From Gloeocapsopsis sp. IPPAS B-1203 (GTDB lineage: Bacteria > Cyanobacteriota > Cyanobacteriia > Cyanobacteriales > Chroococcidiopsidaceae), in the NCBI RefSeq assembly GCF_002749975.1, contig NZ_PEIG01000003.1, positions 372,001 to 436,000 on the forward strand: 64,000 nucleotides of DNA, read 5' to 3'. Shown here in pieces: positions 1,097 to 39,369 of this stretch. Every line of letters begins with the position of its first letter. Position 1 is the first letter of the stretch. Under the pieces are notes generated by a model. The model saw nothing but the letters and a program-made list of their open reading frames with translations. It did no database searches and was not told the DNA's origin. The position numbers and the translations under genes are program-made.

Positions 1097-2494
1097 GTGG
1101 CTAAGGGAGTAGAAACGCACATCAGGGCGAAAATTCAACCTGTGGCAGTACAAGCCAAAAGGCAAGCGAAAGAAGCTAAACAGCATTTACTGCTGATGCT
1201 ATGGTCAATGCGCAAGCGCAACCCTTTATTATTTTGGGGTGGCATCATTTCGATGTCTATGGCTTTTGGAGCAAGTGTGGCATTGTTTGCGCCAATATGG
1301 CCGAATAGCAATACTTTTAATCAAGAAAGACAATTCACTGGGCAAGGATTTATTAAAAGGCGATCGCCTGTAGACTTTTGGGCTGATGCTTCCCAATATC
1401 AAATATCACGTCCAGTTAACATTTTGGTAATGGGGATTGATCCTCCAAAAAATACAACCAACCATGCATCAGGAGTTTTTGCTGGTTCTAGCGATACAAT
1501 GCTGCTTGTGCGCTTAGACCCTACAAACCAATCTATGAAAGTGCTTTCTATCCCCAAAGATAGCCAAGTTGTCATTCCTGAAATGGGGTTAGAAAAAATA
1601 TCTCTAGCTAATGCTAACGGTGGTCCTGCTTTAGCTGCAAGAGTCGTTAGCCGTACTTTAAATAATGTTCCGATTGATCGCTACGTTCGGATTACCACAA
1701 ATGCTTTTCAAGAACTCATTAATGCGTTAGGTGGTGTTGAGGTTTTTGTCCCTCAACAAATGTCATATGTAGATGCGACTCAAAAGTTAGAAATTAACTT
1801 AGCCGCAGGATGGCAAACTTTAGATGGCGACCAAGCACAACAATTCGCGCGATTTCGTAATTCAAATGTTGGTGATTTAGAACGCTCGCAGCGACAGCAG
1901 ATGTTACTCAAGGCAATTCGCGATCGCCTGACTAGCCCTACTGTATTACCAATACTGCCTAGACTAGCTCGGTCAATGCAAAGTCATATAGATAGTAACT
2001 TGAGCTTAATTGAAATGCTCGCAATCGTAAACTTTGGCATTACAGTAGAACCACAAAATTTTCAAATGATACTAGTTCCAGGTAGTCTCAGTCCTCTTAG
2101 TTTAGATCCGAGTAGCTACTGGTTGGATGGTATTGGTATTAACCAAGTAATGAGCGAGTATTTTGATGTTAGACCTCTTGGGGGAATGCAAGCATCCCGC
2201 AGGCGATCGCTGACCTCTCTCAAAATTGCAGTGCAAAACGCTTCTGGCGACCCTAGTTTAAGCGATCGCGTCATCAAGTATTTACAAGAGCGTGGTTTTG
2301 AACGAGTCTACACTGTTTCTGATTGGCTTGACTCGCAGCGTCAAACAGAAATCGTTGCTCAACAAGGTAATTTAACAGCCGCAACCGATCTGCAACAGAT
2401 TTTGGGTTTAGGGATTGTAGAACCTACTGCAACTGGCGATCTCGATTCACATCTAACGATTCGTATTGGTCAAGATTGGACACAGCAACAGTAA
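1097..2494 (+). CDS. LCP (LytR-CpsA-Psr) family glycan transferase with C-terminal LytR_C domain
   Basis: 465 residues. GTG start, with a GAGAGGA ribosome site about nine bases upstream. A single membrane segment lies at about residues 43-68 (LLFWGGIISMSMAFGASVAL). The LCP catalytic domain spans about residues 108-280, with the hallmarks ILVMGID, SDTMLLVRLDP, LSIPKDS, YVRITTNAFQELINALGGVEV and an ARFRNSNVGDLERSQRQQ arginine-rich segment. A LytR_C domain follows at about residues 378-462 (LKIAVQNASGDPSLSDRV). Family members transfer lipid-linked glycans to cell-wall polymers on the outer face of the plasma membrane. In cyanobacteria the acceptor is unknown. It stands alone, flanked by repeats. 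Confidence 0.9.
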   Translation: MAKGVETHIRAKIQPVAVQAKRQAKEAKQHLLLMLWSMRKRNPLLFWGGIISMSMAFGASVALFAPIWPNSNTFNQERQFTGQGFIKRRSPVDFWADASQYQISRPVNILVMGIDPPKNTTNHASGVFAGSSDTMLLVRLDPTNQSMKVLSIPKDSQVVIPEMGLEKISLANANGGPALAARVVSRTLNNVPIDRYVRITTNAFQELINALGGVEVFVPQQMSYVDATQKLEINLAAGWQTLDGDQAQQFARFRNSNVGDLERSQRQQMLLKAIRDRLTSPTVLPILPRLARSMQSHIDSNLSLIEMLAIVNFGITVEPQNFQMILVPGSLSPLSLDPSSYWLDGIGINQVMSEYFDVRPLGGMQASRRRSLTSLKIAVQNASGDPSLSDRVIKYLQERGFERVYTVSDWLDSQRQTEIVAQQGNLTAATDLQQILGLGIVEPTATGDLDSHLTIRIGQDWTQQQ

Positions 2495-2675
2495 CTAAAA
2501 CGGGGCTAGTAGCTAGTTATGAGTGATAGCGATCCTACTTAAGTTGTAAGGTTTTTTTGGAAACGAACTATTAAGAACACATTGCCTGTAAGAGTTGCTG
2601 TTAGCCGCAGGCGTTAGGATAAGTCACAAACAGAAGAGAGGAGGAATTCTGATGAATTATCTAGGATTGCTGTAA

Positions 2676-2732
2676 GAAAATTCTTCAAAATTCAAAACTC
2701 ATATCACTCTCTCAAATTTCTCCGTTTTTACT
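2676..2732. repeat. Short fragment of the dispersed intergenic repeat
   Basis: The segment aagaaaattcttcaaaattc followed by aaaactcatatcactctctc is a truncated copy of the repeat at 827 and 13709. It sits directly at the 3' end of the phytyltransferase gene. Confidence 0.5.
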
Positions 2733-3659
2733 TTAGGCTAATAAACAGGCAGCAGGAAAAATCAGATATTCTAGAAAAAAGAGCTTCCAAATAAACTGAT
2801 AGAAGTTTGCGATCGCGCTTTTGTCTTGTAAATCGACCTGCCAACTGCGCCACCACATCAGCCCTAACAATAGCAAATGAATACTGATTAAAAATACAAC
2901 ATTAACTTGAGGCAGCCATGCAGCAAAAAGCATTCCTAAATAGCAAATTGTCAGTACCCAACGTGCAAGATCAAAGACAGTCTTCTGTCCTAACTTGATC
3001 GTCAATGTTGTAATTTGATATTGGCGATCGCCTTCGATATCTGGAATATCCTTAAAAATAGCGATCGCCAACGTAAACACCAAAATGAACGCTGTTAGTG
3101 TCCAGACAACGGCAGGAATCGAGCGTTCAATCTGCAATACCCAACTAAAGTGCAAAAATAGTCCCAAATTTACGATGGCACCGCGTACTGAGAAGATGCA
3201 CAGCGCTGCCCAGAAGGGAAACCGCTTCAACCGAATTGGTGGTAAAGAATAAACAGTACCAATTGCTAAGCTAATTGCCACCATTCCTAACAAATATGGT
3301 CCCAACATCCACGCTAAGAGTAACGCTAGCAAACCTGTCACTGCAACAATAGTTTGCCCCGTACGCTGCGAAAACTCACCAGATGCGAGCGGTAAATGGG
3401 GCTTGTTGATTTTGTCAATTGCGACATCTTCTAGTTGATTTAGCCCCACAATGTAGACATTGCCACACAAACAAGCAACCCAAGCACCCAAAGGAGAAAG
3501 TAAAGATATATTGCTTCGGGCGATCGCATAAGTCAGCACATACACTCCCCACACACTTAAACTTGTACCAATAATTGTGTGCGGACGCGCAAACTTCCAC
3601 AAAGCATGTAACCAGCCACGCCACCCCAACTGCTGCAATCGCTCAAAAACTTGACTCAT
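2733..3659 (-). CDS. hpt: Homogentisate phytyltransferase (UbiA family)
   Basis: About 308 residues from the ATG at 3659, which has a GAGGAG just upstream and gives the usual short leader before the WKFARPHTIIGTSLSV motif; a GTG at 3704 would extend it by 15 residues. UbiA prenyltransferase with two Asp-rich motifs: NQLEDVAIDKINKPHLPLAS at about residue 80 (N-Q-x-x-D-x-x-x-D) and KDIPDIEGDRQYQITTL at about residue 205. There are eight or nine hydrophobic helices. It condenses phytyl diphosphate with homogentisate to give 2-methyl-6-phytylbenzoquinol, the committed step of tocopherol synthesis, in the membrane. It lies directly downstream of the tocopherol methyltransferase gene in what looks like one transcript. 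Confidence 0.88.
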   Translation of the reverse strand: MSQVFERLQQLGWRGWLHALWKFARPHTIIGTSLSVWGVYVLTYAIARSNISLLSPLGAWVACLCGNVYIVGLNQLEDVAIDKINKPHLPLASGEFSQRTGQTIVAVTGLLALLLAWMLGPYLLGMVAISLAIGTVYSLPPIRLKRFPFWAALCIFSVRGAIVNLGLFLHFSWVLQIERSIPAVVWTLTAFILVFTLAIAIFKDIPDIEGDRQYQITTLTIKLGQKTVFDLARWVLTICYLGMLFAAWLPQVNVVFLISIHLLLLGLMWWRSWQVDLQDKSAIANFYQFIWKLFFLEYLIFPAACLLA

Positions 3660-37409: not shown

Positions 37410-38504
37410 TTAGCTGTTAATTGCAGGTGCAGTCATTGCAACTGGTACTGCTTCTCCTGTAGCTAAATCAAGTGGGAAATTATGTGCATTGCGTTCGTGC
37501 ATCACTTCCATACCCAAGTTGGCGCGATTCAACACATCAGCCCAAGTACTAATCACACGTCCTTGCGAGTCCAGAACCGACTGATTGAAGTTGAAACCGT
37601 TCAAGTTAAACGCCATAGTACTGATACCCAGAGCAGTAAACCAGATACCAACTACGGGCCAAGCTGCAAGGAAAAAGTGAAGCGTACGACTGTTTGCTGT
37701 GGTTCCTAAGATAACCTCGTTTGTGCGTCCAACTAGGCGACCAAAGTAGCCGTGAGCAGCAACGATATTGTAAGTCTCTTCTTCTTGCCCAAACTTGTAG
37801 CCGTAACTTTGAGACTCAATTTCAGTCGTTTCGCGTACCAGAGTTGAGGTGACGAGTGAGCCGTGCATTGCACTAAACAGCGCACCACCGAATACACCTG
37901 CTACTCCCAGTTGATGGAAAGGGTGCATCAAGATGTTGTGTTCTGCTTGAAACACCAACATGAAATTGAAAGTACCACTGATCCCTAAAGGCATTCCATC
38001 CGAGAAACTTCCTTGACCGATAGGGTAAATCAAGAATACTGCGGTAGCAGCGGCGACAGGTGCAGAGTAAGCAACAGCAATCCACGGACGCATCCCTAGA
38101 CGGTAGCTGAGTTCCCACTCGCGTCCCATGTAGCAGAATACGCCAATGAGAAAGTGGAAAATCACCAGTTGGTAAGGACCACCGTTATACAGCCACTCAT
38201 CTAAACTTGCAGCTTCCCAAATTGGATAAAAATGCAAGCCGATCGCATTCGAGGACGGTACAACTGCACCAGAAATAATATTGTTGCCATACAACAGCGA
38301 ACCTGCAACAGGCTCTCGAATTCCGTCAATATCAACGGGTGGCGCAGCAATAAAAGCAATGATGAAACAGGTGGTTGCAGCAAGTAATGTTGGAATCATG
38401 AGAACACCAAACCAGCCTACATAAAGGCGATTATCGGTGCTAGTGACCCAATTGCAGAACTGCTCCCACAGATTCGCGTCGCGTCTCTGTAGAGTTGTGG
38501 TCAT
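37410..38504 (-). CDS. psbA: Photosystem II D1 protein with altered QB-pocket loop
   Basis: 364 residues. Length minus the extra residues agrees with a standard D1. Numbering in this protein is one below standard up to the loop and four above after it. Kept: Glu at standard 130 (high-light type), Tyr161 (FLIYPIGQG), Asp170 (SFSDGMPLG), Glu189 and His190 (FQAEHNIL), His215 (SAMHGSL), His252 (AAHGYFGRL), His272, His332/Glu333 (VMHERNAHN), Asp342 and Ala344 with a cleavable tail. So the Mn cluster, tyrosine Z and non-haem iron ligands are all present. Changed: standard 259-266 (IFQYASFN, including Ser264 and Phe265) is replaced by [13 protein letters not shown] at residues 258-270 (bases 37695-37733). 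It is controlled from a promoter with a palindromic operator shared with the divergent TetR gene. Confidence 0.93.
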
Positions 38505-38554: not shown

Positions 38555-38576
38555 ATTAACTGACCTGTTAGTTAAT
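38555..38576. promoter_or_regulatory. TetR-type palindromic operator at the psbA promoter
   Basis: Left half ATTAACTGACC and right half TGTTAGTTAAT form a 22-bp palindrome with 9 of 11 half-site positions matching (ATTAACTxACx). The ACTGACC...AGT layout is typical of TetR-family operators. It overlaps the last three bases of the psbA -10 box. Confidence 0.7.
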
Positions 38577-38602
38577 ATGCCGCAATAAACTTTTTTTGTC
38601 AA
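38574..38602 (-). promoter_or_regulatory. psbA promoter (-35 TTGACA, -10 CATATT)
   Basis: On the minus strand TTGACA (38602-38597), a 17-base spacer, then CATATT (38579-38574). Good sigma-70 spacing; transcription would start about 60 bases upstream of the psbA ATG. Confidence 0.65.
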
Positions 38603-38709: not shown

Positions 38710-39369
38710 GTGGTCACTAAAGCAGGAAAAGCAGCCAAACAGGTTCGAGATGCAGAGGCGACGAGAACAGCAATCCTCGATGCAGCTGAAGCAGAATTTG
38801 CACAGTACGGTTTAAATGCGGCGAAGACGGAAGAGATTGCTGCGAAGACAGGCGTTACTAAGGCGATGATTTACTACTACTTCAAAAGTAAAGAAGATCT
38901 CTATGTCGCTGTGTTGGAGCGGATATTTTTTGGTAGGTACATGGATTCGATTCAACCAGAGGAACTCGAACAGTTATCGCCTGAAGAAGCACTAGAAAAG
39001 CTCATCCGGCGACAAATCGCTACTGACTTTCATCATCCGCATCTCAACCCGATTCAGATTCATGAAGCGTTGCAAAATCAAGGCAAGTATTACAAACACG
39101 TTCTCAGTAGCGATCGCGCACAGCAAGTCTTTGGTATTGTTACAAAAATTCTAGAACGCGGAATGGCAGAAGGATGTTTCCGCAAACTTCATCCACAGCA
39201 TACTGTGATGAATATCTTGGGAGCTTGTAATTTCTACTTTACTGCCTACGAGAACTTTAAGTATCTTTGGCAAGAAGCACCCTTACTAAGTCCAGAAATG
39301 GTAGAAGAACACTCTCAAGAAGTTGTGAATCTAATTCTTGCTGGTGTCAGAAATACAAAAGATAAATAG
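38710..39369 (+). CDS. TetR/AcrR-family transcriptional regulator
   Basis: 219 residues, GTG start. N-terminal helix-turn-helix: TRTAILDAAEAEFAQYGLNA, then TEEIAAKTGVTKAMIYYYFK, then SKEDLYVAVL (residues about 18-70). The C-terminal domain (RRQIATDFHHPHLNPIQIHE, ILERGMAEGCFRKLHPQHTV) holds the ligand pocket and dimer surface. The cluster of His residues (FHHPHLNPIQIH) may matter for ligand or metal binding. It is transcribed divergently from psbA, and the palindrome at 38555 is its likely target. Confidence 0.9.
   Translation: MVTKAGKAAKQVRDAEATRTAILDAAEAEFAQYGLNAAKTEEIAAKTGVTKAMIYYYFKSKEDLYVAVLERIFFGRYMDSIQPEELEQLSPEEALEKLIRRQIATDFHHPHLNPIQIHEALQNQGKYYKHVLSSDRAQQVFGIVTKILERGMAEGCFRKLHPQHTVMNILGACNFYFTAYENFKYLWQEAPLLSPEMVEEHSQEVVNLILAGVRNTKDK

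Follow-up and report, generated by a model that had tools for sequence, protein, structure and literature searches.

Can the D1 protein of photosystem II (PSII) part with the two residues that hydrogen-bond QB and still belong to a water-oxidising reaction centre, and, if so, for what is such a protein kept? The question is raised by a psbA paralogue in the window, the whole stretch of 64,000 nucleotides that was analysed (G000:C3:372001-436000), which is part of a draft genome, G000, of 5.9 Mb in 57 contigs. The gene, its loop, and the features around its promoter are listed in Table 1.

Table 1. Location of the loop-bearing psbA gene and of associated features, in positions of the window
Feature	Position	Strand	Evidence
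psbA paralogue encoding loop-swapped D1, 364 aa	37410-38504	-	ORF; TIGR01151; donor-side and iron ligands kept
13-codon replacement loop, stands for IFQYASFN (residues 259-266)	37695-37733	-	ORF translation; similar loop in 30 copies
Palindrome TTAACTGACCTGTTAGTTAA, candidate TetR operator	38556-38575		window and genome search; similar site in 23/23 TetR-linked loci
Promoter-like TTGACA-17-CATATT for psbA	38574-38602	-	10/12 matches; second hexamer overlaps palindrome end
TetR-family regulator, divergent from psbA, 205 bp gap	38710-39369	+	Pfam TetR_N, TetR_C_29; homologue in 23/30 loci

The replaced loop of the window D1

The psbA frame contains no internal stops, and its product scores 763.5 bits against the psbA model TIGR01151 (cut-off 596.05), which places it among the PsbA proteins. 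A preliminary description had claimed that IFQYASFN is replaced by 13 residues with the loss of Ser264 and Phe265 and the retention of the donor-side ligands, and the open reading frame confirms this. The loop is bounded by AHGYFGRL before it and NSRTLHFF after it and is five residues longer than the segment for which it stands; Ser264 and Phe265 are both missing, and Y161, D170, E189, H190, H198, H215, H252, H272, H332, E333, H337, D342, and A344 are all retained. Structure prediction of the loop D1 gave a pLDDT of 39.2 from 52 similar sequences, in a part of the protein where, according to a survey of D1, AlphaFold deviates even for ordinary D1 (PMC12096807).

Other psbA sequences in the genome include a copy encoding IWQYASFN (C5), a partial copy encoding IFQYASFN (C1), and further fragments located mostly at contig ends. 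The ordinary psbA is broken at contig ends (C1, C11, C14, and C16), as expected for repeats in a draft assembly. The IWQYASFN copy (G000:C5:399161-400677), together with L107 and L111, represents a further D1 type with W260 and relaxed codons, and in G002 and G014 an IWQYASFN copy occurs in tandem with ordinary psbA.

Distribution and conservation of the loop class

A first search, using a 41-residue query around the loop against 388 genomes of the window's order, recovered nine genomes at 62-83 bits, followed by a gap down to ordinary loops at 43 bits. Seven of the nine belong to the window family, where the loop is present in 7/19 genomes (some incomplete), and the others to the family codes f15 and f19 (1/20 and 1/27 genomes, respectively). 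A sample of the phylum (386 genomes), searched at a strict cut-off, returned only G000 and G001, which share a genus code. The idea that the class is limited to the window family and two outliers was overturned by a profile search over 388 genomes of the taxonomic class, in which 22 genomes carried the loop, 20 of them new (families f34, f38, and f42), with loop copies scoring 68-108 bits versus 57 or less for other D1s among the matches listed. In total, the loop class comprises 30 psbA copies in 29 genomes from six family codes, G800 holding two, and includes assemblies of 2-5 contigs (G002, G006, and G014). What had been described as an isolated oddity is thus a recurring class, and the same loop with its conserved residues in so many copies rules out a chimera as well as a sequencing frameshift, the latter as already argued in the preliminary description.

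A viral origin was also considered and is unsupported, as five pattern matches among viral_contigs were not D1. The loop is absent from the viral D1s that were fetched (the best 80 of 598), 80/80 of which carry IFQYASFN. The best phage D1 among the matches listed has a whole-protein identity of 86.7% to the window D1 (loops unread), and a plasmid search with the loop query yielded zero matches above 80% (loops unread).

All 30 loops share G260, R261, an inserted N-E, G263, A266, N267, S268, and R269, which form the invariant motifs G-R-x-N-E and G-x-x-A-N-S-R (30/30), and two loops (G244 and G747) are one residue shorter. In the alignment, S264 is replaced by V (15), T (11), or A (3), and F265 mostly by N, T, or D. 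Both residues are lost in 30/30 loop copies and kept in 61/61 aligned ordinary D1s, which sets the class apart from ordinary D1 (group 4), and the insert occurs in 0/61 of the same ordinary D1s. Positions diagnostic of the class, defined as those with a residue in at least 80% of the loop class and in less than 25% of the 61 ordinary D1s, all fall within the loop, except for position 16.

Residue counts over the remainder of the protein leave out two incomplete proteins (L097 and L048) and two ChlF-like copies, and G704, a gene cut at a contig end with 12 bp upstream, is left out of the full-length and operator counts. All full-length copies (29/29) keep D61, Y161, D170, E189, H190, H198, H332, E333, H337, D342, and A344, and all likewise keep the iron ligands H215 and H272 along with E244, Y246, A251, H252, R257, and S268. 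By the residue test for water-oxidising D1 (groups 3-4), 29/29 full-length copies belong there. Among other positions, F255 is L in two copies, L271 is N in one, and L275 varies. The acceptor-side swap with an intact donor side first described for the window protein thus holds across the class.

For the first nine genomes, dS in the rest of the gene takes values of 0.09-0.96 within the window genus together with G010 and G014 and of 1.0 to saturated between more distant lineages. The loop is itself under constraint, with a dN of 0-0.22 over all pairs of these genomes (about 0.05-0.22 between distant lineages) and a dS of 0.4-1.0 in most distant pairs, higher versus G244, as measured over only ~15 synonymous sites. 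The loop psbA of G006, compared with the ordinary psbA of the same genome, is 88-100% identical per comparison window before the loop (the first two thirds), 52% at the loop, and 78-88% after it. It appears that sequence from the ordinary copy has replaced the 5' part of this gene, with the loop retained. Conversion between loop psbA and ordinary psbA in this genome (L072 and L012) seems to end at the loop.

The preliminary description had named placement in a D1 tree as a check. D1 trees from which the loop was left out have poor resolution, in part because of gene conversion, and need three label changes in the first set and six in the larger set. The six changes count against a distinct class, though a single clade of the loop class is not rejected (p-AU 0.227, larger set).

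Regulator genes, candidate operators, and codon use

Flanks are present for 29 of the copies, the remaining locus (G704) being cut by a contig end. A TetR gene homologous to that of the window (36-100% identity) lies upstream on the opposite strand in 23/30 loop loci, at a distance of 156-653 bp from psbA, with the exception of G774, where the gap is 1420 bp and holds small ORFs. Six further loci (6/30) have as a neighbour a WD40/NB-ARC (STAND) protein of ~1200 residues, divergent in five and convergent in one. WD40 domains were detected in the two that were scanned of the six large proteins, and a separate scan of one N-terminal half detected NB-ARC. With PADLOC, the STAND protein had a single match, of repeat type, and the TetR had no match. 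The comparison set of 27 ordinary psbA loci, each with 1 kb or more of upstream sequence, was drawn entirely from the window's order, with none from f34, f38, or f42; a TetR or STAND gene adjoins one of them (1/27; a TetR, at L094 in G008). As two regulator families adjoin one rare D1, a functional link is hard to dismiss.

At L094 (G008:C237), psbA (about 1500-2575, minus strand) is divergent from a TetR gene that belongs to the same subfamily (2728-3423, plus strand). Its D1 is unusual, with E170 and the loop LWQYASFH, and a weak operator-like site lies upstream; a switch of this kind may also control a second type of D1.

For the STAND genes, the neighbour of psbA is the best match in the genome to the G266 protein in G006, G008, G266, and G244 (1443-2304 bits; G266 self-score, 2791), and other STAND genes reach no more than 884 bits (11 genomes). 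This orthology covers four of the six loci, the proteins of G759 and G808 standing at 47-49% identity, and the numerous STAND genes in these genomes count against the claim of a pairing. The f15 member of the class (L076, G266) comes from an assembly that is 67% complete in ~1070 contigs, and its STAND gene is nearer to that of G006, from another family, than the gene of G006 is to that of G008. Because this closeness crosses families and the assembly is incomplete, transfer or mis-binning of the G266 copy is possible.

The remaining neighbours of loop psbA, among those listed, vary between lineages. Clp-type, Hsp20, and LysR genes were set aside as partners, since they are confined to the closest genomes, the Clp-type and Hsp20 genes being restricted to five. 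In G828, G890, G898, and G800, one TetR-psbA pair is located near rbcL (named by sequence). The same place in G859 (L270, G859:C24 4575-5108) holds a TetR remnant that is 93% identical to that of G890 and has no N-terminal part, and psbA is missing there, a deletion that occurred in nature; an intact pair occurs elsewhere in G859.

The TTGACA hexamer and the palindrome of the window lie in stretches that are conserved across five genomes. With up to three mismatches allowed, TTAACTGACCTGTTAGTTAA has its sole window match at this site (chance mean, 0.06), and the whole genome has one exact place and one with three mismatches. The related pattern TAACTAACWWGTTAGTTA (three or fewer mismatches, 300 bp upstream) is found at 23/23 TetR-linked copies, a partly circular count since these promoters were also the source of the pattern, and 12/23 have two such sites 50-51 bp apart. 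The controls, which are non-circular and leave out ordinary psbA with less than 300 bp upstream, gave 3/45 ordinary psbA (one being the TetR-linked L094) and 4/4600 base shuffles. Upstream of the STAND-linked copies the pattern occurs in 0/6. A divergent TetR and a palindrome over the promoter together point to a putative TetR-regulated pair. Upstream of psbA, four STAND-linked copies (L072, L073, L076, and L077) have in common a TAACTGACA element close to TAACTTT-like repeats; this element is possibly a binding site of the N-terminus of the STAND protein, a region with zero Pfam matches that we take to be HTH-like.

The best match to a TetR profile is the psbA-linked gene in 22/22 TetR-linked genomes (340-397 bits; paralogues, present in some of these genomes, 317 or less), while 16/20 loop-free genomes have no match to the profile and G003, G009, G013, and G676 have one each. 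The flanks of 19 places with TetR paralogues were inspected, and ten genes, nine of them near paralogues, were scanned for domains. Close to paralogues in several genomes, these include FAD_binding_3 monooxygenases (L269, L272, L277, L280, and L283), Rieske oxygenases (L268 and L276), an ABM monooxygenase (L269), and an arylamine N-acetyltransferase two ORFs from the paralogue (L271); the tenth gene, a Rieske, lies near the loop psbA of G771 (L232). The other places have unrelated neighbours or contig ends. FAD monooxygenases, Rieske oxygenases, and similar enzymes typically act on aromatic compounds, and from this company the psbA-linked TetR is predicted to sense an aromatic or quinone-like compound. 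The TetR tree places the window-family TetRs beside the FAD-monooxygenase-linked paralogues and away from the remaining psbA-linked TetRs. It requires linkage to have changed twice, so that TetR and psbA may have been paired on two occasions or the pairing may have been lost.

Preferred codons account for a fraction of 0.49-0.64 in five TetR-linked copies of the window family (0.58 in the loop copy of G000) versus 0.89-0.93 in IFQYASFN copies of the same genomes. IWQYASFN copies have relaxed codons as well, so this trait is not peculiar to the loop class. Three of the four STAND-linked copies examined (G006, G008, and G266) reach 0.86-0.93, and this use of preferred codons suggests that they are strongly expressed, though in G006 it may stem from gene conversion. 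The relaxed codons of the window copy and the incomplete assembly of G266 could be taken as signs of a decaying or non-functional duplicate or of an assembly artefact. This explanation is already contradicted, and its probability is close to nil, given the open frame and the checked catalytic residues in 29 full-length copies, the low dN of a loop that was retained through gene conversion, and a promoter conserved in five genomes.

The QB pocket and known D1 types

From the sequence evidence, the loop D1 is probably a distinct, conserved class that serves a water-oxidising PSII with a remodelled QB pocket and is expressed on demand via its own regulator. In the window lineage, psbA would be kept off by the divergent TetR, acting as a repressor at the palindrome over the promoter, until released by a small, probably aromatic or quinone-like ligand; in other lineages, a STAND protein would hold the neighbouring place. 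Once made, the loop D1 would replace ordinary D1 in PSII during turnover, where the segment G-R-x-N-E-x-x-L-G-x-x-A would re-form the distal QB wall without Ser264 and Phe265 and alter the chemistry of QB. With H215, H252, H272, and Y246 unchanged, electrons would still exit through a differently shaped site, in which the new loop would have to give other contacts or QB would sit differently. If so, this suggests that cyanobacteria are able to swap in a different PSII on a chemical signal.

The loop could equally cripple QB. By closing or disabling the site it would produce a charge-separating but idle, safe, or cycling PSII under stress (drying, high light, or low oxygen), a reading to which the loss of both QB hydrogen-bonding residues, the five residues added in most copies, and the Clp-type, Hsp20, and TetR genes adjoining psbA in the window lineage lend some weight. 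It is nevertheless improbable, since 29/29 full-length copies retain the ligands of the Mn cluster, Y161/H190, and the processing site at A344, whereas atypical D1 groups that left water oxidation are described as having lost several ligands (PMC12096807), and since the Clp-type and Hsp20 neighbours are found only in five close genomes. Of the altered or absent QB reduction put forward in the preliminary description, alteration is judged the likelier and absence the less likely, and a working electron exit is preferred to a closed one because the whole water-oxidising side is kept.

A QB site tuned for a condition of normal growth (light, redox, or a different quinone), with the TetR sensing a normal metabolite, has also to be weighed. 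Other D1 variants tune other cofactors, and the intact donor side and iron site would suit such a role, as would the preferred codons of the STAND-linked copies in G006, G008, and G266. Against it, a local TetR is in our judgement unusual as the regulator of a light- or redox-tuned D1, and the patchy spread (22/388 genomes of the taxonomic class) suggests that the loop D1 is needed only occasionally; this tuning is doubtful.

The most likely use of the remodelled pocket, and its most attractive purpose, can be put forward tentatively: the loop D1 may keep PSII running while an inhibitor blocks the ordinary QB site. S264 and F265 contact inhibitors, and their replacement alters the target at these contact residues; insensitivity to a herbicide or other inhibitor becomes more plausible given the dedicated TetR genes. 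A natural inhibitor would be plausible because cyanobacteria reportedly produce inhibitors of PSII, cyanobacterin and fischerellin A among them (PMC2525484). The Chlamydomonas mutants F265T and F265S, for which autotrophic growth, slow transfer from QA to QB, and greater sensitivity to atrazine are reported (PMC11645544), indicate that a changed pocket can work and need not be resistant. As a whole, the system is conceivably a defence against PSII poisons that consists of two genes, a TetR or STAND switch and a spare D1 whose QB pocket would exclude natural QB-site inhibitors, and that is either mobile or has been recruited repeatedly. If true, a central target of oxygenic photosynthesis would be replaced inducibly, and the loop D1 would be the first class of D1 to be defined by the acceptor side.

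The S264/F265 stretch, structurally conserved across D1 groups as described in the 2025 survey, would be expected to be fixed by QB binding (PMC12096807) and is here replaced, in 29 genomes, in a D1 that otherwise looks water-splitting. The class is a natural experiment on the requirements of the QB site and a possible natural route to inhibitor-proof photosynthesis. It would also link chemical sensing to the choice of reaction centre, and such a link was not found in the literature searched. That search, which had preprints and most subscription journals outside its scope, showed, among the papers listed, no recognisable description of the loop D1 class, of a TetR-linked psbA, or of an acceptor-side swap with an intact donor side. 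We know of no earlier D1 class defined by its acceptor side and a dedicated regulator.

Among known systems, ordinary D1 (group 4) resembles the window protein over its whole length apart from the loop, the best solved relative being PDB 6wj6 chain A, 'Photosystem II protein D1 2' (738.8 bits), and all of the checked donor-side and iron ligands are common to both. The loop D1 differs in having 13 residues for 259-266, in having neither Ser264 nor Phe265, and in the dedicated regulator gene that adjoins it. ChlF, the super-rogue D1 (group 1), is likewise a D1 paralogue with a changed QB region. L095 (G244) and L124 (G003), which from their sequences are presumably ChlF, differ from the loop class in an eight-residue loop (IPWFASRN and VPWFASRN, respectively), in changes around His252, and in the absence of several Mn ligands; G244 carries the ChlF-like D1 and a loop D1 together. 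ChlF is reported to carry H252Q (PMC10535343), whereas the loop class keeps His252 and the Mn ligands and so lacks the ligand loss that marks group 1.

Rogue or sentinel D1 (group 2) and the microaerobic D1' (group 3) are described as conditionally used D1 paralogues (PMC5061849), as is proposed for the loop D1. Groups 0-2 have, by the survey's account, lost several Mn-cluster ligands (PMC12096807). The donor-side ligands are kept in the loop class, which in this differs from rogue and sentinel D1 and shows none of the ligand loss of group 2. A parallel is offered by antibiotic resistance, in which regulated resistant-target replacement consists of a spare target with a changed inhibitor site beside a ligand-sensing repressor. 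The loop locus would have the same parts, with a spare D1 altered at its inhibitor-binding site beside a putative ligand-sensing repressor.
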